From contig NW_003122425.1 of NCBI RefSeq assembly GCF_000003605.2, positions 14,863 to 63,504 on the forward strand: a DNA stretch of 48,642 nt, given 5' to 3'. The notes under the pieces are model-generated. The model saw nothing but the letters and a program-made list of their open reading frames with translations. It made no database searches and was not told the DNA's origin. This DNA is from Saccoglossus kowalevskii. Taxonomy: Eukaryota; Hemichordata; Enteropneusta; Harrimaniidae. Made by a program: the position numbers and the translations under genes. The stretch's first letter is position 1; every line of letters begins with the position of its first letter. Below, one piece after another: positions 3,330 through 38,100 of this stretch.

Positions 3330-6300
3330 GTTAGTACGTAAGATTGTCTTGATTGGCTATTTTCTCGTCTTTTCCTTGGAGCAAAGTTGCTAGTATAGCT
3401 TTCAGTTGGCAATAATTTTATAGATAAAATCACAAGTATTCAGGCGACCAGTACCAAGACAAATAGCATTGTTATATTTTTTAGTTGAGTTGGTAAGGTT
3501 GTTTGCGTTCTTTCTCAAAACATTCATTTTTACTGCGATCACACAATTAATCCTATTTGCTCGAACATGCATTTCCGGTCCCATCGTTTCATGGAAATAG
3601 AAACTCCTGTTTTGATATAAATGCCTTGATACGTGTGGATATAGCGATTGTAGTGGAACGACTCGCACGGCTTTGCAATGCATTGTTCATTAATTGACTG
3701 CTACAATTGTTTCTTGTGAGTTAGGAATTAGTAGTACAAGCGCTAGTACAAACAATATACAAACGAATACGGGTACGGTGTATGGAATGATAGGTAGTGT
3801 TTTGAAAGCTCTATCAGGGGGGAATTCTTCTCCACGGGGGTCTCCACACTTGTCAGGGGGAATCTCGTCTCGTCTCTATATCTCGTCCCCTTGAGGTATG
3901 GGATCGGGAAAGTCACTTATACTTTACAGTCAAATAAGACACACACAACGAAATACGTTTCAACTCTCGTCTTAGTCGATCAGTCGAGTACTCTACAAGA
4001 CACAGCGCCCTGGGGAAAAGTCCCCAAGACTATCGCAAGGCTGACCCAAGACTCTTTTAGACTGCGTCAGGGCTCGCCCCAAGTATCTCCAGGACTGAGT
4101 CTGTTCTTGTGTACTCCTCAAGACCAACTCAAACTCTCTTTATTCATTTTCAAAACTCTAACCAATTACAAAGCAGTAAAAAGACTCTAGGGCGTAACCT
4201 TCAATCATAAAGCCAATAACACTAAGTACTGAATACGTCATATCTTTTGATTAATCGTTCACTACATTAACAACTACGAATACCAACTGTCAGAATGAGT
4301 AGTCTGAATAGCGGCGGTTATCTGGTAATTAGTTTCAAATCACTGAGCCAAGTTCCGTCCAAAACTTCAAATAGGCCTAAACGATGACAGACATAACACA
4401 GCAATTCAGCTAATAATCAACTAATTAAGTCAGTCAACAGATACGCAAAAACAAATTCATGACAGCTCATACATTATGCATAAAGTTTGGAAAACTGGGG
4501 TGTCTTGAACGCATTCAGCTAAATGCCGACTATTGAAAACCCCTTCAACAAGTGGTGGTGTGCTGTTTCTTGGTCTATATTCAATAGTGGGCGATGAACT
4601 GCAAGCTGTTTAGAAAGCACACATATTTCAGAATTCAAGGCACCAATACAATTCGCGATAATTTTGCTCAGGTTTAATCGAACTTGATCAAATGAGCTTT
4701 GTCCTAATTTCCGTATTTAGAGAGGTTTTAAAGATTTCTCTGCTCTATGAATAGTTATCAAATGTCTTCTTTACATGCAATTATCGTCTCGAAGATATTG
4801 ATTTTTGTCAAGTGATGCAATGTTCATTACAAAATGATTATCACTCTCACTCTTTTAATAGATTTTGTTATTACTAATTATTATTAATTATTATTAATTA
4901 TGCTTTTCATAATATTTTATATATAATATCATAATTACTATATTGGCCTATTTTAATTATGTTCTCATTTCCAATGAAACACTAGAAAAAAGATAGTGAA
5001 GAGAACACTGACGTGGCCACTGACGAAGCCGCTGACGCAGCCGTCGAGGAAGCTGGCTCCGCAAGCAAAGACAAAAAAGAAAAAGAGGCAAGCGAATAGA
5101 AATTATGCTTTTGATAATATTTTTATAAATATATCATAATTACTATATTGGCTTATTTTATTTATGTTCTCGTTTCCAATGAAACACTAGAAAAAAGATA
5201 GTAAAGAGAACGATGGCGTAGCCGCCGAGGAAGCTGGCTCTGCAAGCAAAGACAAAAAAGAAAAAGAAGAAAAAGAGCACGGCAAAGGCAGTAAAGAAAA
5301 AAAGCACGGCAAAGGCAGTAAAGAAAAAAAGCACGGCAAAGGCAGTCATGAAAAAAAAGAAAAAACAAAAAAAGGAGGTAGGAACTATGGCGAATTATCG
5401 CTTCAAGAAAATTCATTGACTTCATGTGATTCAAACCATGTACTCCAAACTTAATGGTCTTTCATCTTGTTTTAATTTTGGCGATTGATTCAAGAAAGAA
5501 TTTCCTGCATTCATGTACGTGTGTTATATTTTGTATTGAATTTTATTGACTGGGCTATATACAATTAGAACCCCCCCTCCCCGAAGTGTATTGTGAAATT
5601 AGGCATTTTACAAATATAATACAATGTAATATGTTCATGTCTTAGGCTTTGAATAACTGAGAATATTTTTCTTATTCAAGCTCGCAAATTCAAACCCAGT
5701 AAGAAGCGACTGCCATTACCAGACAGTAAGTATTGTCACGGTCATAGTATGTATAATCGATTGTTGTTGGTGGTGGTAATAAATGATTCATTGTGCATTG
5801 ACAATATTCATGTTTGACAATTCTATGATATATATTTATATATGAGTGACCCTACAGATTTATTAAATGAATATAACTATACTCTTCCAATAAATATGGT
5901 ATTGTGGAATCACAAACTTGCCTTTATCGTGTGTTCATTTCACATCTTCTGCAAATATCGTATTGCGCGAGTTTTGATGTCACTTTGGATGCGCATCCAT
6001 ATCTCAAACATCTTGCTTGTCATTTTATATTTTAGACTTAGAGAAGGCACACATTTTTGCATGTGCGGCGCCGTACAATGGTGGCACTTACGTTCGGAAA
6101 TGCGACCACGATGTCAGTGTGAATGCATTAAACATCTTCCGCGATAGGTTATGAACTGCATTTCTGACAGTCGTGTTTTATTATTTATTCAATACTGCTA
6201 TGAACGTATTTTGATATCCTTGAAATATTTCTCACTACAGCCGTTTGCAACTGCGCCGCATGGGGAGATCCGCATTACATCAACACGAAGGGGACTAAAA

Positions 6301-9300
6301 TTGATTTCCAGGGGGATTGCGAATACCTGCTTTTTAAAGATAATGACCCCGATCACGACAACCCGCTCTTCATAGTGACTGCCAAAAATCAGTTTCGAGA
6401 TGAAGATGATGTGGTCACATTGACGGAAATGGTCACTGTTTTACTTTATGATTCAGAATACGATTATTACATAGAGGTTAAGATGTTCCAAAATAACGTA
6501 GTTCGTGTGAGTATTAACAATAATTATTCCACATTCAAAATAACTCCCTCAAACATCGACGTTTCATTCACTTGTAAAAATTTGCGCATGCATCGTCGTT
6601 CACAAAAACGTTTATGTCAAATTTACTATAGTGTGCATTTATGAAGAACAACATACATCATAGCTCACCAATATAGACATATATAGAGAGATTGTTCACC
6701 GAACGATTCTCCGACGCTTTTCCGATCAACTTTACTAGAGGTGTGACTGCTTTGGTTTAAAACTGTATCTCTTCGTACATAATGTACGACACCCTAATAT
6801 TAATTTGCCTTAATTAATATGTATATGTCAAGCCAAACTGAAGATCGTTTTTATTATTACAGATTGATGGAATTGACACGATACCCCCGATTCAAATCAA
6901 TGAGCATTATAGTCTTGACCATTACGGTAAGGGGGTTATTCTCATATCGGACTACGGTTTCTGGATGACGTGGGATTTCAAAAACCGCGCTGAGATGGGA
7001 GCCCCTGCTGAATACGAAGGGAAACTGGTCGGTATGTGCGGAAATTGTGACTTCACGTCCGACGATTTATTGATGCCAGATAACTCGATAGCGGAAGACT
7101 GGGTAACATTTGGTAATAGCTGGAAGACGGACAGCTCGTGAGTACAGTTCAGCGAGCACCATTTATTAAAAAACAGATAGCCACACAATTTGTCCTGTGG
7201 TAGCCATTATCATCACATGGCTGTGACAGCAAGCTGCTACTAAATTTAAAAAAAAAATATCTGACATGACTTTTTTTTGAAAACGATCATCACTTGATAT
7301 AAACACAAAGTCTAGCGGCGAACACGGTTATATGGCCTAAAATAACGGATATGAGTGGGAGCAGTGTAAGTAATCAGCTATAACAGATCTAAACATTATC
7401 GATGTGAACACATTTCGTTAAACCTATGTACGCCACAGAACTAATCAAGTAGAATAAAACTAATTATCACGTCTCGTTAAAAAAGACGCAATTACGATAA
7501 ACGCTTATTAATTACATTTGAGTTAGGTAGCATACTGTGAATGGAGATATAGTAGTTCTCATTTCAATAGGTGCATGAATCGAGAAAAAACGACTGAATC
7601 AACTCGAATCTTCGCAGATAATCATACACCTAAGAACATTGGCCAATTGATTCAGTTTTTGTTCACACTTGCACTTTATATGTTCATTCAGTTGCCTTGA
7701 TGTCACTGACACAGCCAGACCTTGCACCAGCGAAATGGAACTCGAGCACCGTGCTGATGACCAGTGTGGTATGATAATCGATCCCAATGGACCATTCAAC
7801 GACTGTGGGTTGAATGATCCTGACCTTGTATCTAGCTTGTATGAATCATGTATGTTCGATATGTGCTACACAAAAACAAATAGAGACGAGGCACTTTGTG
7901 ACAACTTGGGTACAGCCTATGACGAATGCAAATTGAACGGTTATACTCCCGGAGAATTCCGAACCGATACATTCTGCGGTAAGTGATATTACTATACTTT
8001 GTTTTGGTTTTTATTCAGAGAAACGTCAATTATTCGCTTGCATTGTCAAGATTTTAAATTAGGAGCTACAGCATATTGCTCTGCGTTTCTGTTACTTATA
8101 CACTGTGGTCACTTGATTTGTTTCTCGCGTTGATTGCTGTATTTGACGCGGGGTTTTAGAACCATTTTCTGCTATCTTCACAGATGATCCGTATTCTTCC
8201 GTATTCCATAGCTTTAAATCAGCATACTGCTGTCACTGCGACTAATGACAAAAACATGCGAAATATTGGAATGAAATTTTGCAAAGTTTTTGGAGTAGAT
8301 CTGAAACCGACTCGTATTGAAAACGAGTGTTTATTTGCCGCGAGGACCACCTATTGATCACCTTTACACTCCAGGGTCCCACATGTATCATACTATTTTT
8401 TGATCACCTGTTTCCCCTTTTCTGCAGCCCTACGGTGCCAAAACTATGCACGGTACGCCGAGGATGCACCTGCGTGTCCTAACACTTGCTTAAACCCCTT
8501 GGCTTCAACTGAATGCCCCGATGACCCTACTGAAGGTTGCAGTTGCATCGACAATTACCTATTGAGCGGTGATGAGTGCGTCCTGCCCGAGAATTGTGGA
8601 GCTGTTGACGAGAACTACATGTACCACAAGGTATATATCAAATTGTATCTACTTCGCTTATTCGGATGGTAGTGTGATCCGTCATGTCATTAACCTTGTC
8701 GATAGTATTTCATACGATGCGTATAGACAAACACTCACCATCGGAGTTCGCATTTGGTATGACATTTGATTCATTTCATAGAAAATGTGAAGATCCGATG
8801 ACAAGTCACAACTTCTACACAGTGTAAAAAGCAAGTTTTTATTTATTTATAATTTGTTGCTAGATTTAAACCCTCTTAATTCCGCACGCAACTGATCCTG
8901 TGTATTTGGCGTTTTGAATTACATCCCTTTTCCTTGCAAAAAGCGGAAATTAATGTCCTCATCGAATATTTGGTTCAACAGCTGGACGATCGCTGGGTTA
9001 CTGAAGGCTGCTCCGAAATGTGCATTGTAACGGGCCCAGAGACTATTGAGTGTGAGACATTTGGATGCGATATAGACGAGGAATGTGAAATTAAAGATGG
9101 AGGCTACCATTGCATCAGTAAGTTTCCAATCTATTTTTATAAATACCAACATAAATGCGGGTAATTGTCATTGAGAGTTTGTTAAACAAAATACATAAAA
9201 TCACAAGTTTTTGCAAAAGCGATATCCAAAGGTGTTGTTGAATTCTAAATCTGTCGATGCAGCAAAGCACAACGTTTCAAGCCAAATAGACCATAGCGCA

Positions 9301-12300
9301 AAGTTGTACACGTAGTGTACCAGTCATTTTGTTTAAATATTTGTTTATATATTTTATATACAGTCCGCGTAAACGTGACCTTGTCGATTGCACTTGAGTA
9401 CATTGCAGGGGTTCTCCAAACAAATGCGGTTGGCAGATAATCATAGCCCCTGGATTCCATTTAACTATTTTCCTTACACTAAATTGTGAAGTGCAAATAA
9501 AAAAAATTTGGGCATCGATAAATAAAATCTCGGATGATCAACATCAATATTTATTCAAACAGTCATCAAATGGTCTATATTGCGCGTCCGTGTCGTAAAT
9601 ACGTTTATCACATGGAGCGTGGACAGCAGCGCCAACAAAAGAAACAAAAACAAAGACAGCAAGAAATATATTGTATATACTGATACACACAAATTTTGCG
9701 ATTTACAAGTTGTTCATTCCTCTTTGTTCTATAACTCATACCATCACCAAATTGTTGAATTTGTATCCATCTGTCATTGCATATACGTGTACTAACACTG
9801 TTTTATTCATTCATTATTCCTATAGGTTCCGTAGAGGTGCGAGCCGCCCCCGATATTTTGAGCGAAGAAGAGTGTAACACCGTCGGAGGTATCTGCTCGG
9901 TATCCTGTGCGAACACCCCTCTTGGTGAACTAGCAGCAGACAACATGCTGTGTATTACGGGTCTTACGTGTTGTATTGTTCAGCAATGTACGTTTATTAC
10001 CATATTCTGTGAATTTGCCATTCTATAACATGCCCAAATAGTGCTGGCGTTTTTTTAAATAACTTTAAATCATTGTGCATTTATAATGACTAACTCATCG
10101 GTGCATTGTTACCTATTCTTTCGCTAGCTCTGTGCAGTAAGGACCATTACGGTGGTTTCTGTGATATAACATGTAACGACGGCTTGAATTCTATAAACGA
10201 TCCCGAGCTGTGCGAAGGTTTCCCAACAGGTTACGTGTGTTGCAAGCCAATAGGTAAGTATTGTATAGTTACCACCCACCAGACACTTGAGTTGTATCTA
10301 TATTACGCTTTCCGTGGCGTTTTGCGTGAGCAGTGTTGAGACAATTTTAAATGAACGCTACGAGTGCGTGAATTTTGAATAAATATTCACTAGCGGCGTG
10401 ACGGGTTTTGTGAGAAGGGAAAAGGTATAAATCTCCATTAGAAGCCAATACTGTACACAGGAAACAAGCCGATGTGCTCCAGGGCGATTGTTTCCATGAC
10501 CTGAGTATCTGTGACGTGTAAGTTGAGAAATCGTTTTTCCTTATTAACTCTTCCTTGTTTTGTTTTTCTCCCACAGTTGAAAGAAGAATTGGACGTAAGT
10601 ACCCCTTCGTAAACAACCCTTCGTAATTGTTTTTGTAGAATTATAAAATAACTGCATTGAAGTTAATGTTGGTCGTTTTTTTTTTTAAATTACAGTTTAC
10701 TTTCCGGAGCCAGCAATTGTTGACGGAGGTACGTGACTAGTTTTGATCACAGCTGTGTGATCCCATAAATAATGTGTCTCATTCGTTTTACCATAATCCC
10801 GCGAGCATCAATGACAACACAAATGGTTTCATACTTAATAATTATACACGATGATTATTTAATTTTTAATTTCACGGTTAATGAAATTGTACACTAAACT
10901 ATCGCTTTCTTTCATTCCGACAGAGCTTGGTGTTGAAAAACCATCGCCCGAGGGTAAATATTGTTAACATTTAATATCTATGGTAACAACTGCCCGTATG
11001 TCATATACAATAGCATGATACGGATTTGAAATATGCTAACTACTCTAAAAATGTCAATACTTCGTACTATACAAATTATAGTCATGTAATATTTGGATCC
11101 TATTCTTCACGCATACATTTATCACTTGAAATATACATACTTAGGGGCACTGGTTGTCGGGAAGAAAACATGTATATGTACTGCATGAATATTCGTTGTT
11201 GTTCGTAGAGATCGGCTCACATCCATCGCACACGATTGCGGCTACCGACCACCGACCTTTATTAATCGTCCTATTTTTTTTAAACAGATTTACCTCCCGA
11301 CGAGGAACTTGCAGCAGTTGGTAAGACACTTTTAACATTAGCAGTATTGTCGCACGTACAAATATAACGATGTTAATCACTATATGGTGCAATTAGTTTA
11401 CCTTTGACTGATATTTATTATTCGTTTGAACTTAGGTCCACCAGGCGAAGGTGCTCCTGCACCAGGTAAGACCATGCATTTCTTACCATAACATATCAAA
11501 CAATATTAGCTTTTATTTATTTGTTTGCTATCGTCAATACCATTGCCTATTTGACTTCAATCCTTTATCGCCAGTCACATTTGTTTTTTTCATTTTTCAG
11601 AAATTTATATCTTTTGTAGCCAATTGGAAATGCTGGTCATTATTATGACCGATTATTGAAACGAGCGTTTTTATTAGTCAATGGGTACCACGTGCTGCCC
11701 AGTTATCAAACAATAACTGGACAGTGCTTGAGGGCAATGTAACGAACGGACGAGTATGTGAACCAAATTTGTCCAACCGTTTCGCTTATGTGTACGGATC
11801 GTTTAAACATCAAACCCATCGCTAATAATTCATGTTAAACAATCTTGGCTATTTTTATCGTGGCACGACCCGTCGTAGATGCACTCAGTCTAATTACAAA
11901 GCAAGCATCGCCGGTGCGCTTGCTATGCGATCGTGTTATTCTTGTCAAGCACGCCGTGAGAAAATTGAATAAATGTGGTTCAAAATTAATATTATTGAAA
12001 AATACATACAATTTTGCAAAAGTTGTTTTGAATTCAATTTTGATAGAAAATATATAGAATTCAACTGAACAAACGTGCAATTAAACATCGAAATCAAAAC
12101 ATTAATTCGAATAACATGTAAAATAAATATTGTGTTTCTGGTAAAGTTGATAAACACACACAAAATATGTATGAAGGCAGACAACAGTTTTTAATTCACC
12201 AACATGTTCCATACAAATCTAATCTTGTAGTTAGTTATTATTAACACAACAATTGTGTGCATGCTGGTCTATATTGGAATCGATGAATGATTTTTTTTTC

Positions 12301-13997
12301 TTCAAAATGTGATATTTTACTTTTAAACTTATTCATAACACTGTTTTATTATTTTGTTCAGAGAATTACGTTGCTAGTGAAGACACCATAGGAGGTACGT
12401 TGAATATACTTTTACCACGCTGTGTTTTCACATAGGCTTTGATTAGTCGGGATTCCTATACGTATGAAACAAATCATCAAAACTGATAAAATTATCTCAA
12501 GTATTTCAAAGCGCTATTAATAATTAAAATTGTAATCATGATCCACTGTTGTTCACTCCAATGAAATCACAAACATTCTTTGTACAATATTTGTATGTAT
12601 ATGAAAAAGAAATGTATGCTTACAAATGTGGGTACAATTAAATATACTGTTTTGTTTTTATAGGTATTCCAGTTCCATCCTTCGGTCAACATGGTGAGTA
12701 AATACTGCGGAAATGTGTCACAAACTAATGCAATCATAGAATAGAATTACTTGTAAATTTTGTGTTTTGTAATTTAAATCAAATAGTACAGCCTTCATCG
12801 AACATTCATCGCAGAATGCCAAATGACATATGCAAAGTTAGACGTTTTGTAGTGAAGTTAGTAGGCTCAAGTTATTGAGTAGTTATCGAATTGAGTAGCT
12901 TACTGGACAGGTGCAATTGACGTACCCGCCTAGCACGAATGAGACTAATTTCATATATTTCTTTTCAATTTTTCTGCCAACAGGCGATCCAACTGGTAAG
13001 TTATCTTCCTTTTCTGATTTTGCGTTCATATACGCCCTTCTCTACTTTAATAACCGGCGAATAAGAGGCAGCAAATATATGCTTTTTATGAGAAGGCGAT
13101 GTGGTGATATACAATATACCTAATATATGATATATGTAGATGAATATGTTAAATATAAATAGATGTACACTATATGATTTATACATGCAAAGACGTTATA
13201 TCGTCAGTAGTATAGTAATATAACTACAAATCTAATGTTTTGCATTGATTACTATACCACAGCTGCCGGGGAACAAGGCGACCCTAGAGAAAAGACACAC
13301 GATGGATTACGCTACACGTTCATTGGTGATAAAGATGCATGTGATTATTACCTACTTCGCTCAACTAATCCCAGTGTCGATATCATAACCCACCATGTTC
13401 CGGGAACCACAGCAGGAGAGAAAGCTACATTTGTTTCTAAGATATACATAGAATATGAAGGGGTTAAGTTTAGGTTACTTCAAGACAATGATGTTGAGGT
13501 AATTTGTCTGCTTTCTTTTTTATCATAACCATCATAATGCATGGAAATGAAAGACATTTTTGCATTTGTGTTATTACTTATTGTTGTTTTTAATTATTAT
13601 TAGATTAACGGTGTGAATGTGAAAGATCAGATCTCTGTGGAATCACCAACGTCGTTTGCAAACGGACTTGTAGAAATACAATGGGCTACTCCGACAAGGG
13701 AAACATTATTGCTTTCGTTTGGCTCTGAACTTGCAGTAGTTTGGAGAGGCCACTTCAACCGTGTTAAGGTCTACACCACGTTGACAGGATTGTCTGGTCT
13801 TTTGGGAGACAACGACGGCAATAGTAGCAACGATCTGAACTACATGAAAGATGGAGAGTTGGTAATACTCGATCCCAAGACCGTTACTGAAGAACAATTA
13901 CGGGAATTTGAAATAGCCAACAGAGTGGGTCCATGTGTAAGTTTGTTTTATCACATTTACGTCATATATCATATTTTTTTCTCATTCATTCATTCAT

Positions 13998-14052
<55 letters not shown>

Positions 14053-14113
14053 TTCATTCATTCATTCATTCATTCATTCATTCATTCATTCATTCATTCA
14101 TTCATTCATTCGT

Positions 14114-14144
<31 letters not shown>

Positions 14145-14178
14145 TTCATTCATTCATTCACAGGGAACCACAAAATAA
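3264..14178 (+). CDS. Gene A: secreted VWD-C8-TIL protein with tandem defensin-like modules
   Basis: Predicted CDS join: 3264-3329, 4986-5087, 5191-5377, 5681-5725, 6036-6116, 6241-6506, 6863-7137, 7692-7978, 8428-8630, 8982-9117, 9826-9987, 10128-10253, 10577-10594, 10696-10728, 10924-10953, 11288-11320, 11436-11465, 12362-12394, 12664-12693, 12984-12995, 13263-13498, 13604-13936, 14164-14178. It totals 2739 nt (912 aa plus stop) with consistent phases. Order: signal peptide 1-20; Lys/Glu-rich 23-118; VWD 161-341; C8 341-436; TIL 437-504; TIL-associated/half EGF 505-549; defensin-like modules 550-603 and 604-645; micro-exon linker 646-718; divergent VWD 719-908. VWD-C8-TIL blocks are typical of mucins, zonadhesin-like and adhesive proteins, so a secreted, disulfide-rich matrix or adhesive role is inferred. 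Weakest junctions: the GC donor after 5087, the GTGTGA donor after 6116 and the last exon. Confidence 0.8.
3815..4464. repeat. Interspersed element, copy 1 (in gene A intron 1)
   Basis: This is about 650 bases, closely matched by 18281-18951 and 19401-20005. It starts at a G-run, passes through CTCGTCTCGTCTCTATATCT and TAAAAAGACTCTAGGGCGTA, and ends in AAATTCATGACA. It has no long open frame and no internal promoter that I can recognise. The reverse complement starts TGTCATGAATTT, so a solo LTR is possible. GCTC flanks both ends (before 3815 and after 4464), a possible short target-site duplication. Other copies differ by indels, including an extra CTCCACTGGACTGCG segment missing here. Confidence 0.8.
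4897..5282 (+). repeat. Tandem duplication of exon 2 plus its upstream intron
   Basis: Two units of about 200 bases sit head to tail: about 4897-5099 and 5101-5282. Each has the same A+T-rich intron end, the same acceptor (TTTCCAATGAAACACTAG) and an exon starting AAAAAAGATAGT. The units differ at scattered bases, and the second exon carries an added internal repeat. This is a clear local exon duplication inside gene A. Confidence 0.85.
4986..5377 (+). CDS. Gene A exons 2a and 2b: Lys/Glu-rich charged region
   Basis: Exon 2a (4986-5087) encodes KKDSEENTDV... rich in Asp, Glu and Ala. Exon 2b (5191-5377) starts KKDSKENDGV and ends in phase 1 at GGAG|GTAGGA. Exon 2b includes a nine-residue HGKGSKEKK-type repeat, about three copies encoded by near-identical 27-bp units at about 5277-5350. 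Exon 2a has no GT donor before its stop codon; the best candidate is the non-canonical GAG|GCAAGC after 5087, which keeps phase 0 into 2b. Alternatively 2a is skipped. The region should be highly charged and disordered, with Lys-rich segments that may bind polyanions (inference). Confidence 0.65.
5681..6116 (+). CDS. Gene A exons 4-5: basic linker and short Cys-containing segment
   Basis: Exon 5681-5725 (after TTATTCAAG, donor ACA|GTAAGT) encodes a basic Pro/Lys stretch, ARKFKPSKKRLPLPD. Exon 6036-6116 (after TATTTTAG) encodes a segment with two cysteines around PYNGGTYVRK that matches no family I know. Only the GTGTGA donor after 6116 gives the phase 1 needed by the following VWD exon. A stronger-looking site about 30 bases downstream would break the frame. 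This occupies the place that lectin domains take in gene C. Confidence 0.6.
6241..7137 (+). CDS. Gene A VWD domain (two exons)
   Basis: Exons 6241-6506 and 6863-7137 join in phase 0. Landmarks of a von Willebrand factor type D domain are present: CAAWGDPHY near the start, DFQGDCEYLL, a GVILISDYGFWMTWDF strand region, and VGMCGNCDFTSDDLLMPD with the Asp/Asn calcium-site pattern near the end. The exon boundary and flanking phases match gene C. In VWF-like proteins this domain supports disulfide assembly. The exon ends in phase 2 at GCTC|GTGAGT. Confidence 0.9.
7692..7978 (+). CDS. Gene A C8 domain
   Basis: One exon between acceptor CATTCAG and donor TGCG|GTAAGT, phase 2 to phase 1. It holds eight or more cysteines in the C8 pattern: an N-terminal SC, ADDQCGMI, NDCG, ESCMFDMCY, LCDN, DECKLNG and a terminal TFCG. 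C8 normally follows VWD directly and precedes TIL, as here. Gene C aligns throughout its length. Confidence 0.9.
8428..8630 (+). CDS. Gene A TIL domain
   Basis: The single exon is Cys-rich in the trypsin-inhibitor-like pattern: LRCQNYA, ACPNTCLNP, TECPDDPTEGCSCIDNYLL, GDECVLPENCG. It ends in phase 0 at CACAAG|GTATAT. In VWD-C8-TIL modules this unit caps the block and is usually structural rather than a true protease inhibitor. The final CGC of the gene C copy is CGA here, one cysteine fewer. Confidence 0.88.
8982..9117 (+). CDS. Gene A TIL-associated segment and truncated EGF
   Basis: The exon begins LDDRWVTEGCSEMC, a TIL-associated/VWC-like stretch. It then has FGCDIDEECEIKDGGYHC, the first half of an EGF-like domain, and stops at ATCA|GTAAGT. 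The gene C counterpart continues CECAPGYIGDGETCE, giving a complete EGF. The second half is absent here unless an unseen exon lies in 9118-9825. Confidence 0.75.
9826..9987 (+). CDS. Gene A defensin-like module 1
   Basis: The exon is in phase 1-1 and its cysteines are spaced C-x6-C-x3-C-x14-C-x5-CC (from ECNTVGGIC to LTCCIVQQ). This equals the beta-/big-defensin six-cysteine array. It is embedded in a large secreted protein rather than being a stand-alone peptide. Disulfide connectivity is not visible. Similar spacing could arise in unrelated small knots, so homology is inferred from pattern only. Confidence 0.75.
10128..10253 (+). CDS. Gene A defensin-like module 2
   Basis: The phase 1-1 exon has cysteines spaced C-x8-C-x3-C-x12-C-x8-CC: LCSKDHYGGFCDITC, PELCEGFP and VCCKP. 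The sequence NSINDPELCEGFP is close to the second modules of B (NSIHDPTLCSGFP) and C (VAIDDPVLCEGWP). It is therefore a conserved module type distinct from module 1. Confidence 0.75.
10577..12995 (+). CDS. Gene A linker encoded by eight micro-exons
   Basis: The exons are 10577-10594 (18 nt), 10696-10728 (33), 10924-10953 (30), 11288-11320 (33), 11436-11465 (30), 12362-12394 (33), 12664-12693 (30) and 12984-12995 (12). All are phase 1-1 with good AG and GT sites. They encode short Pro/Gly/Glu-rich peptides such as DLPPDEELAA, GPPGEGAPAP and GIPVPSFGQH. The series matches B and C exon for exon, so the smallest exons are believable despite their size. It probably forms a flexible spacer. The introns otherwise contain only A+T-rich sequence and one hairpin repeat. 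Confidence 0.8.
11685..11765. repeat. Intronic hairpin repeat shared with gene C
   Basis: The perfect inverted pair CCAGTTAT (11699-11706) and ATAACTGG (11713-11720) sits in a stretch similar to about 46268-46345: GGTACCACGTGCTGCCCA versus GGTTTCACGTGCCGCCCA, then AACAATAACTGGACAGTG versus TACAATAACTGGGAAGTG. It lies in a different linker intron in the two genes, so it looks like a small mobile repeat and not paralogous intron sequence. Confidence 0.6.
13263..13936 (+). CDS. Gene A divergent VWD-like domain (two exons)
   Basis: Exons 13263-13498 and 13604-13936 join in phase 0. The pattern is VWD-like: GEQGDPREKTHDGLRYTF, DACDYYLL, VVWRGHFNRVKVYTTLTGLS, GLLGDNDGNSSNDLNYMKDG. The GDPH histidine is replaced, and the usual GLCG cysteine before the calcium loop is missing (GLLGDND). 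Only two cysteines remain, one at DACDYY and one near the end. The same changes occur in B and C, so this is a distinct subfamily and not decay. Confidence 0.85.
13982..14160. repeat. (ATTT)n/(ATTC)n microsatellite
   Basis: About 180 bases of tetranucleotide repeat alternate between ATTT and ATTC blocks. It fills nearly all of the last gene A intron and runs directly into the acceptor CAG at 14161-14163, so it supplies the pyrimidine-rich tract of that splice site. It also creates artefactual open frames of repeating LFIY/HSFI. Confidence 0.95.
14164..14178 (+). CDS. Gene A last coding exon
   Basis: After the microsatellite acceptor the frame continues GTTK and a stop (TAA 14176-14178). The upstream exon ends GPC at CCATGT|GTAAGT. 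Genes B and C end differently (phase 2 junction), so this tail is less certain. Reading through the donor instead would run into the repeat. Confidence 0.5.
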   Translation, partial: GTTK

Positions 14179-17300: not shown

Positions 17301-18280
17301 ACGTCCTAAAAACATATAACAATTCGGATAGTGGTGATTTATGACACACAATATTAGGCATTACGTTGTCATGAATTCAAATAGTATATTGTGGCATTAA
17401 AAGATGGTGCCAAACGCCTCATATTTTACTGAATGAATGTATGATTATGCAAATTATTCTGCATATTATTTCCTTTAAATATTAAGGATCATACCACTAG
17501 TTTGACACTTTAAAGTACTTGTTAAATACCCACTCATACATTTAAGTTTGGGGGTTGGTTTCTGCTGCACTGAAAGTATTTGAAAAACACAATAAATAAT
17601 AAAACATCATCAGTAAAATTGAAAAAAAAAGATCGTTGCCTCGCCCCATTCCTACCGCAATCGACATTTTCCATTGAAAAGGTGAAGCAATGCATGTGTC
17701 ATGCACTTAATATGGTAAAATCATCACGAACTATTGGTTTGGGTTTCTTGGCAAATTCAAACGTCTCAAAGAGACCAGAAGAAATGTATTTTCTTGAAAC
17801 TCAACAAATCGTTTTTTTGTTGGTTTTTTTTCGATTTTTTTTGTTTTAAGTATTTGATGTGGAGATTTGAATACACTTTAGTATTAGATTACCAGCAGAA
17901 TATTCTAGATTAGCGTATGCATTCTGGTTTGTCTATGAATGATAAACTAAACGATTTTGTATATGCATTTTACTAAACAATGCAATACATTTTAAAATGT
18001 ATTTCGCAATTCATTCCCCGTCTGTAATACATTTGAAAAGGCACGAGTCCGCGGATGTTTTTATGCGTATGTAGCCTAATGTCAATAATTTGACAACGAA
18101 ATCAGAATACGTAGACCACAGTCAACTAGCGTACACGTGGTAATAAAATAAATGCAAGCACTTTGCTAGTATTTACTATCATGAATACGGCTTGAGACTA
18201 AATAAAAAGAAAATTTATGAAACCGGTTTTTCAGATTCCTACAAATCAGGAAAAAAAATATCAAAATTTCACACCTTTAT

Positions 18281-18951
18281 CACGGGGGGGGGGGAAATCT
18301 TCTCTATGGGGTCTCCACACGTGCCAGGGGGAAACTCGTCTCGTCTCTATATCTCGTCCCCTTGAGGTGCGGGTTCGGGAAAGTCACTTATACTTTACAG
18401 TGAAATAAGACACACACAGCGAAATACGTTTCAACTCTCGTCTTAGCCGATCAGTCGAGCACTATATAAGACACAGCGCCCTGGGGAAAAATCCCCAATA
18501 CTATCGCAAGGCTGATCCAAGACTCTCTTAGACTGCGTCAACACTCGCCCCAAGGCTCTCCAGAACTGGAATCTCCACTGGACTGCGTTTATCGTGCTGT
18601 ACTCTCCAAGACCAACTCAAACTCTCTTTATTCATTTTCAAAACTCTAACCAATTACAAAACAGTAAAAAGACTCTAGGGCGTAACCTTCAATCATAAAG
18701 CCAATCACACTAAGTATTGAATACGTCATATCTTTTGATTAATCGTTCACTACATTAATAACTACGAATACCAACTGTCAGAAATAGTAGTCTGAATAGC
18801 GACGGTTATCTCGTAATTAGTTCCAAATCACTAAGCCAAATTCCGTCCAAAACCTCAAATAGGCCTAAACGATGACAGACATAACACAGCAATTCGCTAA
18901 TAATCAGCTAATTGAGTCGGTCAACAGATACGCGAAAATAAATTCATGACA
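18281..18951. repeat. Interspersed element, copy 2
   Basis: Full-length-looking copy, same orientation as the copy in gene A intron 1. It has a G-run start, CTCGTCTCGTCTCTATATCT, TAAAAAGACTCTAGGGCGTA and AATTCATGACA at the end. Nearly every block of copy 1 is present in order, and it has the CTCCACTGGACTGCG segment that copy 1 lacks. Confidence 0.85.
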
Positions 18952-19400
18952 TATCCCTTCACCCAAACTGAGATTATGCCTCCCGGCATTGCACGTTCAC
19001 AAATCTAAGATACCGTCCTCTACTCATCGTCATACGGGTTAAATACAATACTAATAAAAGTATAAATCAAAAGATTAAAACACACTAATTAAGTACAATG
19101 ATTATAATGTCTAAATACAATGGTTATAAAGTCTCAAATAAAACAAGGGAGATGCTACCAATCGACTCACTTTTCTCAAACAGTTCGCTGAGGTAACCCT
19201 TCGCTGCTCTGTCTCCGTTATTAAGGTTACAAACTTTATATCAAAAGGTCAAAAAAACTAAGGCGTGGCGGTGTAACCAAGCGATCAGCCAATCGCTGCA
19301 GTCGATAGCATGATCGCGTGATTACCAGGGATGCGTCTCTCGGTTAAAGCATTGCAAAGCGGTAACTAATAAACAATGAATAAACAAGCTATTAATCAAA

Positions 19401-20005
19401 CGGGGGGGGATCTTCCCTATGGGGTCTTCACACGTGCCAGGGAGGAAACTCGTCTCGTCTCTATATCTCGTCCCACACACAGCGAAATACGTTTCAACTC
19501 TCGTCTTAGCCGATCAGTCGAGCTCTATATAGGACACAGCGCCCTGGGGAAAAATCCCCAAGACTATCACAAGGCTGACCCAAGACTCTCTTAGACTGAG
19601 TCAACACTCGCCCCAAGGCTCCCCAGGACTGGACTCTCCACTGGACTGCGTCTATCGTGCTGTACTTACTCTCCAAGACCAACTCAAACTCTCTTTATTC
19701 ATTTTCAAAACTCTAACCCATTACAAAACAGTAAAAAGACTCTAGGGCGTAACCTTCAATCATAAAGCCAATCACACTAAGTACTGAATACGTCATATTT
19801 TTTGATTAATCGTTCACTACATTAAAACTACGAATACCAACTGTCAGAGTAGCGACGGTTATCTCGTAATTAGTTCCAAATCACTGAGCCAAGTTCCGTC
19901 CAAAACCTCAAATAGGCCTAAACGATGACAGACATAAACACAGCAATTCGCTAATAATCAGTTAATTACGTCGGTCAACAGATACGCGAAAACAAATTCA
20001 TGACA
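19401..20005. repeat. Interspersed element, copy 3
   Basis: Same family and orientation, about 450 bases downstream of copy 2. It lacks about 50 bases after the CTCTATATCTCGTCCC block (the CTTGAGG...TACAGTGAAATAAG part). It shares CTCCACTGGACTGCG with copy 2, so these two are closer to each other than to copy 1. TTAAT occurs at both ends (near 19393 and 20008), a possible target-site duplication. Confidence 0.85.
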
Positions 20006-20698
20006 CCTTAATGATGCATTTGGGAACTCACAGCCACGTTCACCAGCTTAAATCAGCGTCAATTGCTACAGCAAGCGATGTAACCCCAGCAAAAAAATGG
20101 CTCGACAACAAAACGGCAATGATCAACACGTTTCACACAAAATCCAAGAAGGTGACCAGTCCAAATGACTGATCAAACATATTGAGAATGATTGAAAATG
20201 CGAGACATTGAAACGCACCATTAGGGGACGTATTTCCAAAGACATACAGGACAGCCTGTTAAACCACATTATTGCATTCTTCTGGTCTTTGTGTTTTATG
20301 ATGCCCTTTTTATGATGCACTAATAAATACGAAAACTATATTTGACCAATTTCGTTCTTCTAATGACAATGTACAGTTCACAAACCTTAACATAAAACTA
20401 TATATACATGTACATACAAATATTGTTTTGTGCGAGTAATGATACAAAAACACGTCTAGATGTTCATGGTTTATTCCCAACTAATCTTTAAACTACAGAA
20501 AGGGGTTTTATTTTGACAAGAATCTACAACCATCTACAGCCACACTAACGATATGAGGGTATATGTTTGTGACAAAATCGGTATCTTCAAATTCTTCATA
20601 GTTTTTATTTCGTCGTAAAGGATTATAGTATATCAGTCAGGTCTGTGCGTATCTCCAATGCTTCGTTCAGCTTACTTCAACAACTGCAAAAATATAAA

Positions 20699-22133: not shown

Positions 22134-23047
22134 CTGTCAAGCCAATGTTCGCCGAACTTGTTCATTTCCTCCGTCGACGAAGTCTCGTCGAGCCACACCT
22201 CTTTTCCATCATCGCCTGTATAATGTAAGTCGTCACTCATAACCCCATTGTTATTCCCAATAAGACCGGATATATCCGTTAAATCTGTCTCTACAATCAC
22301 GTGTCCCAAGAGCCCGTTCCAAATAACAGAAAATTCACCGGGACCGAAGTAAAGCGTGACAAAATCTTTATTCTTGTTATTCCACTTAATTTCAATTCCG
22401 CCATTTCCGAACGTTGTTGCGTTGGTGCTTATAAATTCGGTGACGTTAGAGCCATCAACCTAAGAAAGTACATATATGATAAGTAGTTATAACTGTTGTG
22501 CCAGTTGCCACATCGTAAAATATTATCAATAGTTTGTGGGTATTCTCGGGGCGGACATCCGGGCTGTTTCGCCGCCTGGCAATCCATTACAGTGAAAAGA
22601 AAGGCCGAAATGTGTCAGAAAATGGTACATTGGAATAGTTGTTCAGACACCCCTGAATAGTGTAAAAAGATTACCCCCTCCATGTGAAACATATACAAAT
22701 TCGGTCTCGCAATCCTGTAAGTAACATTGCTCTGTAATAACCGAAAAAAACTAGAAAGAACGCTCATCGACACGAGATACACTAAAAGGCACGCTGCACA
22801 TAAATAATACGTACCCTCATACGATTTCCTTCTAGCAATTCTAACATAACGTCTTGATAGTAAATGTATGTTCGTGTGAGAATAGTGGCAGGTTGACCAA
22901 ATTGTGTCGCTTCAGTGTGATGGCTAACGACCCTGAAGGGAGGCTCTTTTGTTCTCTGCATCAGTATGTAGTTACATGGCCTTCCTAAGAATTTGTACTG
23001 AAGACCATCCAACGTTGTTATCAGAGGATCTCCGAATTCGCCGGGAC
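22134..23047 (-). CDS. Gene B divergent VWD-like domain (two exons)
   Basis: Exons 23047-22815 and 22459-22134. They show the same fold markers as A and C: GEFGDPLITTLDGLQYKFLG, GRPCNYILMQ, ELLEGNRMR, FSVIWNGLLGHVIV, SGLIGNNNGVMSDDLHY. GDPL replaces GDPH and GLIGN replaces GLCGN. The domain is intact, with the same internal phase-0 intron, and ends at GACAG|GTATAT in phase 2 as in gene C. Confidence 0.88.
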
Positions 23048-23237: not shown

Positions 23238-25531
23238 TTGCTTGCACATTCCCTGTGTATGTAATCAGTGGAAAAATTAATATCAGTATATATATAATAA
23301 ATACAATAAAATACAGTAACAGCTAAATGATATTACATGATGGTAGGAGTACACTGTTCCAACATAGGCACGAATGTGCGACATATCAGAAATATTATCA
23401 GAATAAATTACACGAATATTTTGAACATTTTTACACGTGTACTGCGGTGTCATAGGGTACAAGCTTGTTAAATAATATTGATAATGACTGCAAACAAAAT
23501 ATGCAAAAATACTCCTTTCCAAAGTTGAGATTGTTTTGGGCATTTCAATGCGCAATTGGAATGCCAAGGTGGATTTGTTGAAGCGTCATTTGTATTGTTT
23601 AATGTTATGGTCTGTTTCAAGTCTCGGTTAATTTATATATTTTAAACTGGACGGCTAACCAGTAATAAAATGGAAGGCATATTTACATTCATTATCTAAA
23701 TAAATCTCGCAAGATCATATGCTAAAACATGCATATAGATTGGCGCAGTGTACAATTCAACTTATGTATACTGTGACGATTTACTAATCTACGAACAAAC
23801 AAAGAGATAAATGTGGATATGAAAAATAAACGAATGAGCTGCTCACCAGGGTGAAAAATCTTAATCAATATAAGTGTATATGTTGAACTTACCACTAATG
23901 GGGAAATCTGGAACTTCAATACCTGTTAATAAACACAGATAAATTTCAATATAAACTACAGTGAATGCCAGCAATATGTGTGAACTTAAAGCAACGTAAT
24001 AACGAACATTATGAGTGGAAACAGTTGGGCTCAGTGACAAGCAGAACGATCATAACCGTGAATGGTAATTAACGAATAACAACAGATGAGACGCACCTCC
24101 ATACGTTTCACCACTTAAAATAAATCCATCTGAAAAATTAATAATAAAATATTCATACGTGTATCAGTAAACCATCAATCAGCTGAATTCAACTTCGTAA
24201 ATAAAACATTAAAGCATTACCTGGTGGGGGTTCGTCTCCGTCGTTAGGACCTGGAGAAAATATGAAAGATTGTCATGAGATATTTTATGAAGATTTCTTG
24301 AAATTTATACCAAGAAATTGCGCGGCTTTTCGTTTACATACCCAAATGGCTGGAGGTGTTCGTGTACTTAACGCATTCAGTGTACCTTACCTATAGCTTC
24401 TCGTTCTTCAGGTGGTGGCACATCTATAAAAAAAAATGCAAAGCAATTTTGAAATAGTTACAAAGAAACAAAAGAAAAAGGTTCAAAAGAACATTGAAAT
24501 CTGATGCAAACCCACATAATAGTATTATTTAGTATATAATAACATTCACAGTGGCGTTTATCATCTGTAGAATCACAAAAAAATAAACCAAAGTTCAACT
24601 GTTTTCAGTAAAACAAAACTGTTGGCAGTTAATTCGATTCGTGTAATTGCACCCACCAATATACAAGTACATGTTCGAAGCTTCACAGCAACTCCTCTCA
24701 AATAGAGAGTGGGATAATCGTATTCTATATATAATTGTATAAATGTGATTATAACCAACTTGTGAGTTCATAGCAAATACTTGAATTGTAATATGAATAC
24801 ACACATATGCCTTCTCGGTCTAGAGGTATAGATTGAATGTACAAATAGTTATACAAAGGTGGACTATTTAAGCAGAAGACGTTTACTAAGTTACTGTAGA
24901 GCGCTAATCGCATGCAATAATTACCTTTTGCCTTCAGCCGTGGAACGTCAAGCTCTGTAAACCAATGCAAAGCAAACAAATATTATTCGACACAAAAAAC
25001 CAGAGGTAGACATTCATTTAACGCAGAAAGTGAGTGAGCGAGCGTCCGAGTGAATGAGTGAGTGAGTGAGTGAGTGAGTGAGTGAGTGAGTGAGTGAGTG
25101 AGTGAGTGAGTGAGTGAGTGAGTGAGTGAGTGAGTGAGCGATCGAGCGTCCGAGTGAATGAGTGAGTGAGTGAGTGGGTTGGGTGTTGAGTAAGGGTGGG
25201 TGGGTGTGGGTGAATGGATGGATTAATGAATAATGACAAACAATATAGTGTATCAGAAAAACTGACCTCCATTTTCATCTTCTACTGGATCTGGTGCATA
25301 CACTATAGTGGAAATAAAATACAGTGATTAATTGACAGACAATACACCAAACTTTAAGTACCCTGGTTAATGTATTTTAAAACCAATGATCCAATATTCC
25401 AAAATCGATAAGTTACTTAAAACAAATTGAACATATGGATTGTCTATTATCTGTATATCTTATGACTTCTTTTTGGTATTTGGTGAATTAAAAAAATATA
25501 TCTTTCTACCAACCTCCAATACCTCTGACAT
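23238..25531 (-). CDS. Gene B linker encoded by eight micro-exons
   Basis: In transcript order the lengths are 18, 36, 30, 33, 30, 33, 30 and 15 nt, all phase 1-1. Peptides parallel A and C: VYAPDPVEDENG (C: FYNPLPIDENG), ELDVPRLKAK, DVPPPEEREAI, GPNDGDEPPP, DGFILSGETYG, GIEVPDFPIS. The 15-nt exon (23252-23238, GNVQA) stands where A and C have 12 nt. Conservation of length and phase in three genes validates the individual micro-exons. Confidence 0.8.
25030..25192. repeat. (GAGT)n microsatellite in gene B intron
   Basis: About 160 bases of GAGT/TGAG tetranucleotide repeat with short interruptions (GCGAGCGTCCGAGTGAAT occurs at both ends). It lies in the intron between the 36-nt and 30-nt linker exons and produces a spurious Thr-His-Ser-Leu repeat frame on the minus strand. 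Confidence 0.95.
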
Positions 25532-26583: not shown

Positions 26584-26709
26584 ATGGAGGTTTGCAACAA
26601 AAGTATGTTTCGGGAAATCCACTACACAGTGTTGGATCATGTATCGAATTCATTGAATCGTCACATTCGACACTACAAAACGCACCAAATATGTTTTCAC
26701 TGCACATAT
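26584..26709 (-). CDS. Gene B defensin-like module 2
   Basis: Cysteine spacing is C-x8-C-x3-C-x12-C-x8-CC, identical to gene A module 2. Key blocks are MCSENIFGAFCSVEC, SIHDPTLCSGFP and YFCCKPP. The exon is 126 nt, phase 1-1, the same length as in A. Confidence 0.8.
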
Positions 26710-27789: not shown

Positions 27790-27942
27790 AATCTTCAGTG
27801 AGGCAACATACATCCCCTTCATTGCAAAGTAGTGAGTAAATGGCAACTCTGCCAATAGTGTTCCCTGTATCGCATCTGGCTTGACATATTCCTCCCACTT
27901 CATTACAGTTTTCTCCAGTGTTTCGTCGCCTCAGCACGGAAT
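27790..27942 (-). CDS. Gene B defensin-like module 1
   Basis: Cysteine spacing is C-x6-C-x3-C-x15-C-x5-CC (NCNEVGGICQARC, LLCNEGDVCCLTED). ECNTVGGICSVSC of gene A is clearly related. It is preceded by a basic stretch SVLRRRNTGE. Phase 1-1, 153 nt. Confidence 0.8.
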
Positions 27943-35140: not shown

Positions 35141-38100
35141 GTAATACATCTTTACTGAAATTTCTTTGAATATATGAAGCTACATTACAAAGGTGTGTGT
35201 CGTGATAAATATATGTAGCAGTATTTTTTTTATTGTTAAAGAAAACTCAAATAATAACTACATGTGTCTGCACCCTAATAATTCTTTACATTTCATAACT
35301 TGTTTCTGCTTGCATATAAAATCTACGATTCGATATAGCGAACATAAATATGACTTGTTCAAATTACGTCACTAATTATTACACCCTGTTCGATTCGGAC
35401 AAAACAAAATGACTGACTAGAAATTTAAGACAAAACATGTTTCTGACATGGAATGACAACCATGCTTTATTGTACTTAGGTCTATGTCCATTTTTAGGAT
35501 ACGACTACAATAAAGACCATTACATTATAACTGTTGTTACAAGTAATGTTTGTGTAAAGTTCAGACAATACATATTCTTGGTATATTTATCAAATCACTG
35601 AAAGTCCTAGTAAAGTATCCGTTGGGGTTGAACATGTCTTTGTTATCTGCACACGTAATCTTGTCAAACGATGTATAAAGTTGACTAGTTGGCAGGCGCA
35701 GATAATTGAGTTATAAACACGAGCATTACAAATATTCTCAAGTGCTCTACTTGAAACAGACGTACATACCGTGCAAAATATAAACTAGCTGTGTGAGAAT
35801 TAAACACAATTCTAAAACTGTTATCTAAAATTATTATTTTTAAATGTGTCGTATATTCATTTCAGTTGAATGGAAGATCTGCACGAGGTAAGTAATGAGC
35901 TTGATAGGTATCGATAAAACGTATCGGAATGAATTCCTATCTAAAAACCGGAAACGCGATACCATATACTTTGCAACAGCTGTCGCATGCCCGAGGTCAA
36001 GTGCATTGCCGTGGAATAAGCAGAAATGTACACATACTTTAATATCAACTCTAAATATTAGTTATGTTTGATTTTAGCTTTGCATGTGTAAGCACTTATT
36101 GGGACCAGCTGTGTCCCTCCATGATCGTGGTATGATGACGTCATGCTACACTCAAACGAAACTATAATATGCGATGCATACATGAAATAAACATGTGATC
36201 TACCGTAAAAAAACACTCAAATCCTTGATTATGTGGATTCCAACTCAACTTCCCCTGCAATAATATCTACAGCAGTGTGTGAATATTATTCTGTGACGTT
36301 AAATTGCAACAAGGTGTGTTAGTATGTCTCACATGCAGATAATCCAATAATTCTTGTTTTATTTTTTGTCAAGCTTTGGTACGCCGTACAGAATTACTTG
36401 GTAAGAACATCCATCAAAATATTTGTCGTTGAAAATTGTTAAGATAACTTTGTTGTATGTATTTTATGTATTGTATTCCTAATTGCTGGACGCCTAACTT
36501 GAATATGAGCAATACAATTCCGTTATAGTTCATTATTTATAGCTACTAGCTTATCCATACGTCGTCTTGAGCAAAACATTATTGAAATGTATGTTAAACC
36601 AATACGAGAGATCATATTACTATTGACGTGTCACGTGTTAAATATATTCTAGGCTCTGATTCTCACATTTTCGACCCTGCATAACATTTTAACATGTATA
36701 TGCGCATATTTGAAAAGCATATCACCGTGGGTTAGACCATCACCAACATCTAACAGTTTTAATACCGATAACACTACCACTGTCTCGGTGTTGTAGCGGA
36801 TACAATTCTCGATGATGTTTAATGATGATAGCAGATTGTATGACACCGACTATACTATAAGCTACATATAAGTTATTGTGTACGGGTACGCTGGTGCTGT
36901 GTCGGCCACTAATACAGTAATGACAGGAATATGTGCCGTACAAACAATTGATGAAACAAAAGTGTGGTGTCTTGTTTCAGTGCTTGAAAATAAATAAGAT
37001 TATCCCATCTGTGACACTCTTAAATCAACTAAACCAGTGATGAATTAACAGATGGTATCGATTTGTTATTGGACACTATACAATGCGTTTGGTGACGTCG
37101 CGATTATTTTAAATTATACGTATGTGGCACATGCGATGTGTCAATCATTTTTTTGCGCTGGCATTTCAGATTAGGTTATTGACATTTTCCAGTTCTCTGC
37201 AAACTGTACAAAAAATAATCAGCGACATTGTATTTAGATACTCGATTTTTCTTCTTCCTCGTTCCTAAAATCTAACAACGTTTCCGTATTATTCTGATGC
37301 GCTGAAATATACAGACTGGTTCTAAATTAAAGTACCTAACTTTCTACATTTTATTGCTGTTGCTTTAAAAAAATATAGGTATAACAAGTAGCTATGTAGT
37401 AACTCGGATAGTAACTACGTAAAACATATTTCAGTTCATAAATTGATTCAAAAAGTATTTAATTTTGAATTGTGAATAGTTTAAATCAATCAACTTACAG
37501 TTTGCTGAGCTATGCATGGTGTTCCCTGTATATATCTGAATTCTTAGCCAGAGAACAAACATATCTTAGGTAGTTTCATCATGATTACGTAAGCAGCGAT
37601 TTGATAGTGTACTTTTCCTCGTAAAAAGTAATACGAACATTATGCACCTGGCATTTTTTAGTTTATTTACACAGATTTATGTCGTCTATTTATCTAATTT
37701 ATCACTACAGTACTAGACTATACATATGACAGACAGTTGATTTCGACTTTGAAAGACAATTAATTAAATAAACAAAAGAAAACATGAGCGATCCTATGTA
37801 CTTGACTTCTTTTAATTTATAACAGCTGGTCCTTGCGACGAAGACGACATTATCTACAAGAATCATTGTTATCTATTTGTAACTGACAAGCAAACTCACG
37901 ACACGGCGAAAGCAATGTGTGAAGAACATGGGTACGGCCTAGCTTCGATCTCGAGTGAAGATGAGAGGCAGTTCCTGAAGAATACCATTCAGGCTGATAG
38001 TAGTTTGAGTGGGAACGTATACTGGGTTGGTGCAACGCGTGTTGATGGAGTGTGGACGTGGGACTCGGGTGAAGAATTTGTCGACAGCTACTGGGGTGGC

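Follow-up and report, generated by a model that had tools for sequence, protein, structure and literature searches.

The window analysed here, a 48,642-nucleotide stretch of the Saccoglossus kowalevskii genome (contig C1503, positions 14863–63504, within an assembly of 572 Mb), contains genes A, B and C, each of which carries a pair of cysteine-rich module exons followed by a VWD domain. Gene A lies on the forward strand, and its spliced model lacks the 5′ end, for which reason the residue numbers of the preliminary description (550–645) were not reproduced. A first VWD domain with a GDPH motif (6241–7137; exons 6241–6506 and 6863–7137) is followed by exons for a C8 domain (7692–7978), a TIL domain (8428–8630) and a TILa (E) domain (8982–9117). 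VWD (6e-36, in two stretches), C8, TIL and TILa all score above their Pfam cut-offs, and gene A belongs by this definition among the D-assembly genes. A second VWD domain, poor in cysteine and with the motif GDPR, is encoded at 13263–13936 (exons 13263–13498 and 13604–13936). The preliminary description had placed the modules between a VWD-C8-TIL-EGF block and this second VWD: the placement holds, but the supposed EGF domain is the TILa/E domain of the D assembly, since it scores as Pfam TILa above cut-off. The order in gene A is D assembly (VWD-C8-TIL-TILa), module pair, a linker of microexons and the second, Cys-poor VWD.

Several other features lie close by. A long TTTA/TTCA tandem repeat occupies positions 13980–14165, in the last intron of gene A, and a Lys/Glu-rich open frame with GSKEKKHGK repeats, possibly a 5′ exon, is found upstream of the gene at 5191–5454. 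A repeat of ∼0.7 kb is present in three copies (3694–4473, 18147–18996 and 19325–20047), the translated pieces of which are mostly 70–97% alike; it is probably a mobile element.

The modules of gene A are two adjacent phase 1-1 exons, as had been proposed, and both are bordered by AG and GT. The first (9826–9987, 162 nt) encodes the array C-x6-C-x3-C-x14-C-x5-CC and the second (10128–10253, 126 nt) C-x8-C-x3-C-x12-C-x8-CC, that is, spacings of 6-3-14-5-0 and 8-3-12-8-0. The big-defensin spacing claimed for them at the outset describes the first array, though its last loop has five residues rather than four; it does not describe the second, in which the loops are longer. The strict pattern of the first array matches once in the six frames of the window and never in 60 order-2 Markov windows, and a looser pattern matches four times against none in the same 60. 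Judged by their spacing, these four matches correspond to the two modules of gene A and the two of gene B. With the loosest pattern, one exon of gene C joins them, for a total of five.

The pair was also said to recur in genes B and C, and both copies are present. Gene B lies on the reverse strand, with a first module at 27790–27942 (spacing 6-3-15-5-0), a second at 26584–26709 (8-3-12-8-0) and a second-type VWD domain with the motif GDPL at 22134–23047, VWD being the sole Pfam domain type listed for this gene. Module pair, linker and second-type VWD make up what is seen of it: the stretch upstream of the pair showed no VWD-C8-TIL block, no exon of a D assembly and no candidate for a signal exon. 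Gene C, on the forward strand, is more elaborate. Three lectin domains, two C-type and one SUEL (37828–40564, Pfam), stand in front of a VWD domain (GDPH), a C8-like exon, TIL and TILa (40919–43638); then come the first module (44034–44156, spacing 6-3-12-3-1-0, with a seventh cysteine), the second (44243–44371, 7-3-12-10-0) and a second VWD with GDPL (46699–47595, Pfam). C8 is absent from the Pfam matches of gene C at E-values up to 0.01, and the C8-like exon is 48% identical to the C8 segment of gene A; besides TILa, gene C has EGF matches that stay below their cut-offs.

Outside the window the pair is found in gene D, on the same contig, and in gene F, on contig C3423, where it again precedes a second-type VWD. 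The second VWD of gene B, used as a query, recovered the second VWD of all five genes together with six weak places, on C4555, C361, C1362, C3531, C4504 and C348. The 4–5 kb upstream of four of these six were read and a module was present at one (contig C4555); the module pattern was not found upstream of the weak matches on C361 and C1362, and the stretch on C3531 consists mostly of N. The C4555 module, which was reached by way of the VWD query and not by way of a defensin, scores 24 bits, and from it two more modules were found, one on C4555 and one on C4304. The exons kept thus number 13, from five paired genes and three single modules, and every one is a phase 1-1 exon with AG/GT borders. 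Beside the C4555 module lie further candidate Cys-rich exons with other cysteine arrays (C4555, 251986–252096, 255356–255604 and 257869–258000); these were left out of the 13, and of the two that were scored neither matches the profile. A further D-assembly gene, gene E, is located on contig C1503 at 70650–72697 on the scale of the window, and its continuation enters a stretch of N.

Module pair and second VWD are joined by a string of phase 1-1 microexons. Gene A has eight (10577–12995, forward strand) of 18, 33, 30, 33, 30, 33, 30 and 12 nt, giving a linker of ∼70–73 residues; gene B has seven (23893–25531, reverse strand) in nearly the same size order, and gene C eight (44680–46578, forward strand). 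Across genes A, B, C and D the numbers are 8, 7, 8 and 7, with sizes of 12–36 nt, all multiples of three and in near-identical order. The spliced models of genes A (incomplete at its 5′ end), B and C are free of stops. Skipping of any one microexon would be predicted to leave the frame intact, and linker length could be tuned in this way because all of the sizes are multiples of three.

We then asked what the modules resemble. A profile built from ten modules, searched against 177,635 PDB sequences, gave helianthamide (E 3.6e-4) and the vertebrate beta-defensin DEFB106 (E 5.9e-3) as its top two matches and the sole ones below an E-value of 1; a human beta-defensin (E 3.2) and an unrelated chain (E 3.3) followed at the level of noise, such that three of the four matches at E up to 10 have the beta-defensin fold. 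Profiles of eight modules and of four tandem pairs matched DEFB106 and helianthamide only. Three control profiles, in which the non-cysteine columns had been shuffled, returned 0, 1 and 10 PDB matches, none of them a beta-defensin. The best of these reached E 0.039 on cochlin, an unrelated chain, and E-values near 0.01 are for this reason weak by themselves.

A further comparison keeps the cysteines of three defensin segments (DEFB106, 6mjv and helianthamide) in place and shuffles everything else in them 1000 times. With the ten-module profile no shuffled sequence reached the real score of any of the three segments (0/1000 each), and the same was true of the 13-module profile, in a test that is biased in favour of these segments because they were picked as best matches. 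The signal is concentrated in the first module. Its profile alone gives helianthamide 24.3 bits (0/1000), DEFB106 17.5 bits (1/1000) and 6mjv 6.4 bits (21/1000); that of the second module alone gives 8.7 bits for helianthamide (31/1000) and 0.5 bits for DEFB106 (166/1000), with 10/1000 for 6mjv, and returned no defensin from the PDB. The three outside modules by themselves make a profile that is weak on defensins (DEFB106 69/1000, 6mjv 3/1000, helianthamide 4/1000). First and second modules are nonetheless related to each other (hhalign probability 72, E 3.5e-5).

Searched as a single sequence, module A1 matched no defensin in the PDB, just two dehydrogenases (E 0.96 and 1.5); for module C1 the matches were DEFB106 (E 0.11), helianthamide (E 2) and, between them, an unrelated chain (E 1.6). 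The real modules have no match among the Pfam defensin models. A consensus drawn up by hand for the first module has a single Pfam match, to Defensin_beta_2 (E 0.036, residues 2–17, below cut-off); the same model gives three matches across the genome, all under cut-off, and the sole match in a Pfam scan with eight members was to a MYND zinc finger, which is unrelated (E 0.8). CLIP, in which the gap between C2 and C3 is longer, and WAP, which has eight cysteines, were considered as identities for the module and set aside; both were missing from the Pfam and PDB results.

Three further characters bear on the question. Six cysteine columns are invariant in all 13 modules, and the beta-defensin superfamily array, taken generously as C-x(4-9)-C-x(3-5)-C-x(9-15)-C-x(4-8)-CC, accommodates A1, B1, A2, B2, D2 and F2; the last loop of C2 is longer. 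A glycine two residues before C2 (GxC), a hallmark of beta-defensins, is present in five of five first modules and two of five second modules. Secreted mosaic proteins often have phase 1-1 exons, and the phase 1 intron that lies just 5′ of the cysteine region in all 13 exons is therefore weak evidence on its own; according to the available text of PMC7203481, big- and beta-defensin genes share a phase I intron at the 5′ border of this region. Taken together, profile matches, GxC and intron position support the view that the first module is defensin-like at the level of sequence. The second is a diverged relative of the first, without a defensin match of its own.

All six modules in the window (genes A, B and C) are acidic, with net charges of −2 to −5. 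Across the 13 modules nine are negative; the positive ones are F1 and the three outside modules (the latter +4 on C4304, +2 and +2 on C4555); the choice of module ends matters slightly, other ends giving 0 for D2 and +2 for F1. A seventh cysteine occurs in six of the 13 (C1, D1, F1 and the three single modules), and cross-linking through it is possible in these, whereas the modules of genes A and B contain exactly six. The amylase-binding motif YIYH is absent from each of ten modules checked.

These data can be read in more than one way, and the readings differ greatly in probability. Least credible is that the modules are chance open frames or decaying pseudo-exons rather than a feature of genes. 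The genes are known here from their sequence alone and gene B has no upstream block, as might be expected on such a reading, but cysteines, phase and order are conserved in five genes on two contigs, the spliced models are open throughout and the Markov windows are empty of the pattern; we consider it extremely improbable. Convergence of an unrelated small-knot family upon the defensin spacing, with no homology to beta-defensins, would sit well with the lack of Pfam defensin matches for real modules, with E-values that are moderate and with a second module that matches no defensin. Yet no other small-knot family is found among the PDB matches of the unshuffled profiles, residues other than cysteine contribute to the score, and GxC is retained in every first module and some second ones: convergence is in our judgement unlikely.

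Other alternatives concern what the modules do. They could be purely structural knots, acting as disulfide-rigid spacers or as points of covalent cross-linking between the D assembly and the second VWD. The seventh cysteine in nearly half of the modules is compatible with such a role, as is the participation of D assemblies in the disulfide-linked polymerisation of mucins (in the portion of PMC10880436 available to us); set against it are the six-cysteine modules of genes A and B and the share of non-cysteine residues in the defensin score, and we judge that a structural role alone is improbable. The preliminary description preferred built-in antimicrobial modules, knots that kill or agglutinate microbes held in mucus or glue. 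The defensin-like profile, the lectins of gene C and the positive charge of the relatives on C4304 and C4555 are in keeping with this, but the modules of the window genes are acidic without exception, and among solved relatives the one with the best score inhibits amylase, while its kin magnificamide showed no antimicrobial activity. An antimicrobial role thus finds no support for the window genes and seems to us quite doubtful, although the odds given to it and to the other functional alternatives overlap; membrane lysis in particular is made less likely by the acidic charge. The mucus or adhesive setting that was proposed along with it remains plausible, given the D assembly of gene A and the C-type and SUEL lectins of gene C.

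The explanation that we favour, and regard as probable, is that these are tandem binding modules with a beta-defensin fold, gained as phase 1-1 exons and then duplicated, in a secreted VWD/lectin mosaic family. A binding knot is preferred because of the acidic charge, the lack of antimicrobial activity in magnificamide and the precedent of the sea-anemone mucins. A beta-defensin-fold module would have been acquired as a phase 1-1 exon and its duplication would have produced the tandem pair; three disulfides would turn each module into a small, protease-resistant binding unit; and the pair would be displayed on a mucus or adhesive glycoprotein. Each module may bind another protein, for example a foreign hydrolase, as is thought for the helianthamide-type domains of sea-anemone mucins, while skipping of microexons could set the length of the linker. 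Given that YIYH is missing from all ten modules, the target would differ from that of the amylase inhibitors.

Beta-defensins are usually free-standing small peptides and have been studied as such. A wider reading, which we put forward tentatively, is that a beta-defensin exon of phase 1-1 was moved by shuffling and came to be present throughout a family of VWD/lectin mosaics, where the fold serves anew as an acidic binding knot; the case would then exemplify the exon-shuffling route to vertebrate beta-defensins. Exon shuffling is one of two routes proposed for the vertebrate genes in the available text of a 2020 paper (PMC7203481), in which big defensins are reported as apparently absent from hemichordates and echinoderms. 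If the reading is true, then a related fold is present in a deuterostome lineage reported to be without big defensins. The mitochondrial contig of the assembly (17,037 bp) encodes a COX1 with an in-frame TGA read as Trp; its gene order, with the other genes named by eye from their frames, resembles that of deuterostomes, and ATA fits Ile at conserved sites, which tentatively points to a hemichordate. A stable format with the fold as an exchangeable exon in a large secreted protein would make visible the movement of defensin exons; it would also separate the defensin fold from antimicrobial function.

Each of the systems to which the modules can be compared is similar in part. The six cysteines of the vertebrate beta-defensin DEFB106 align in register (E 0.0059), and vertebrate beta-defensin genes share the phase 1 intron 5′ of the cysteine region (PMC7203481, in the part available). 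They encode small free peptides, however, of which the two compared segments are cationic, whereas most of the modules are acidic, and they belong to a larger protein. Big defensins have the spacing C-X6-C-X3-C-X13(14)-C-X4-CC, with bonds C1-C5, C2-C4 and C3-C6 (available text of PMC2958110), which A1 fits except for one extra residue in the last loop. Their hydrophobic N-terminal domain (PF14862) was not matched by the models of genes A, B and C at E-values up to 0.01; the Pfam big-defensin model found nothing across this genome, but gave no match in control genomes either.

As for the host protein, gene A resembles FCGBP-like D-assembly proteins in its VWD-C8-TIL-TILa order and its GDPH motif, which FCGBP also carries (PMC10880436, in the text available), and differs in adding the defensin-like pair, the microexon linker and the second Cys-poor VWD; gene C adds lectins. 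No VWD protein with a beta-defensin-like or defensin-like domain was found in the parts of the open-access literature available to us, and print beyond open access may differ. Helianthamide and magnificamide represent the nearest type by profile: helianthamide is the best PDB match, its segment is likewise acidic and its 3-12-4-CC end spacing is that of module D2, although the YIYH binding motif of this type has no counterpart in the ten modules checked. The absence of antimicrobial activity in magnificamide is taken from the available portion of PMC6835510. On the sources available, the closest precedent for an embedded domain of this kind is the sea-anemone mucins, where in some anemones a beta-defensin-like domain is part of a mucus protein and is assumed by the authors to protect the mucin sugars from foreign glycosidases (PMC10604346, as far as its text was available). 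In that protein the domain is accompanied by trefoil domains, whereas here it forms a tandem pair within a VWD mosaic.
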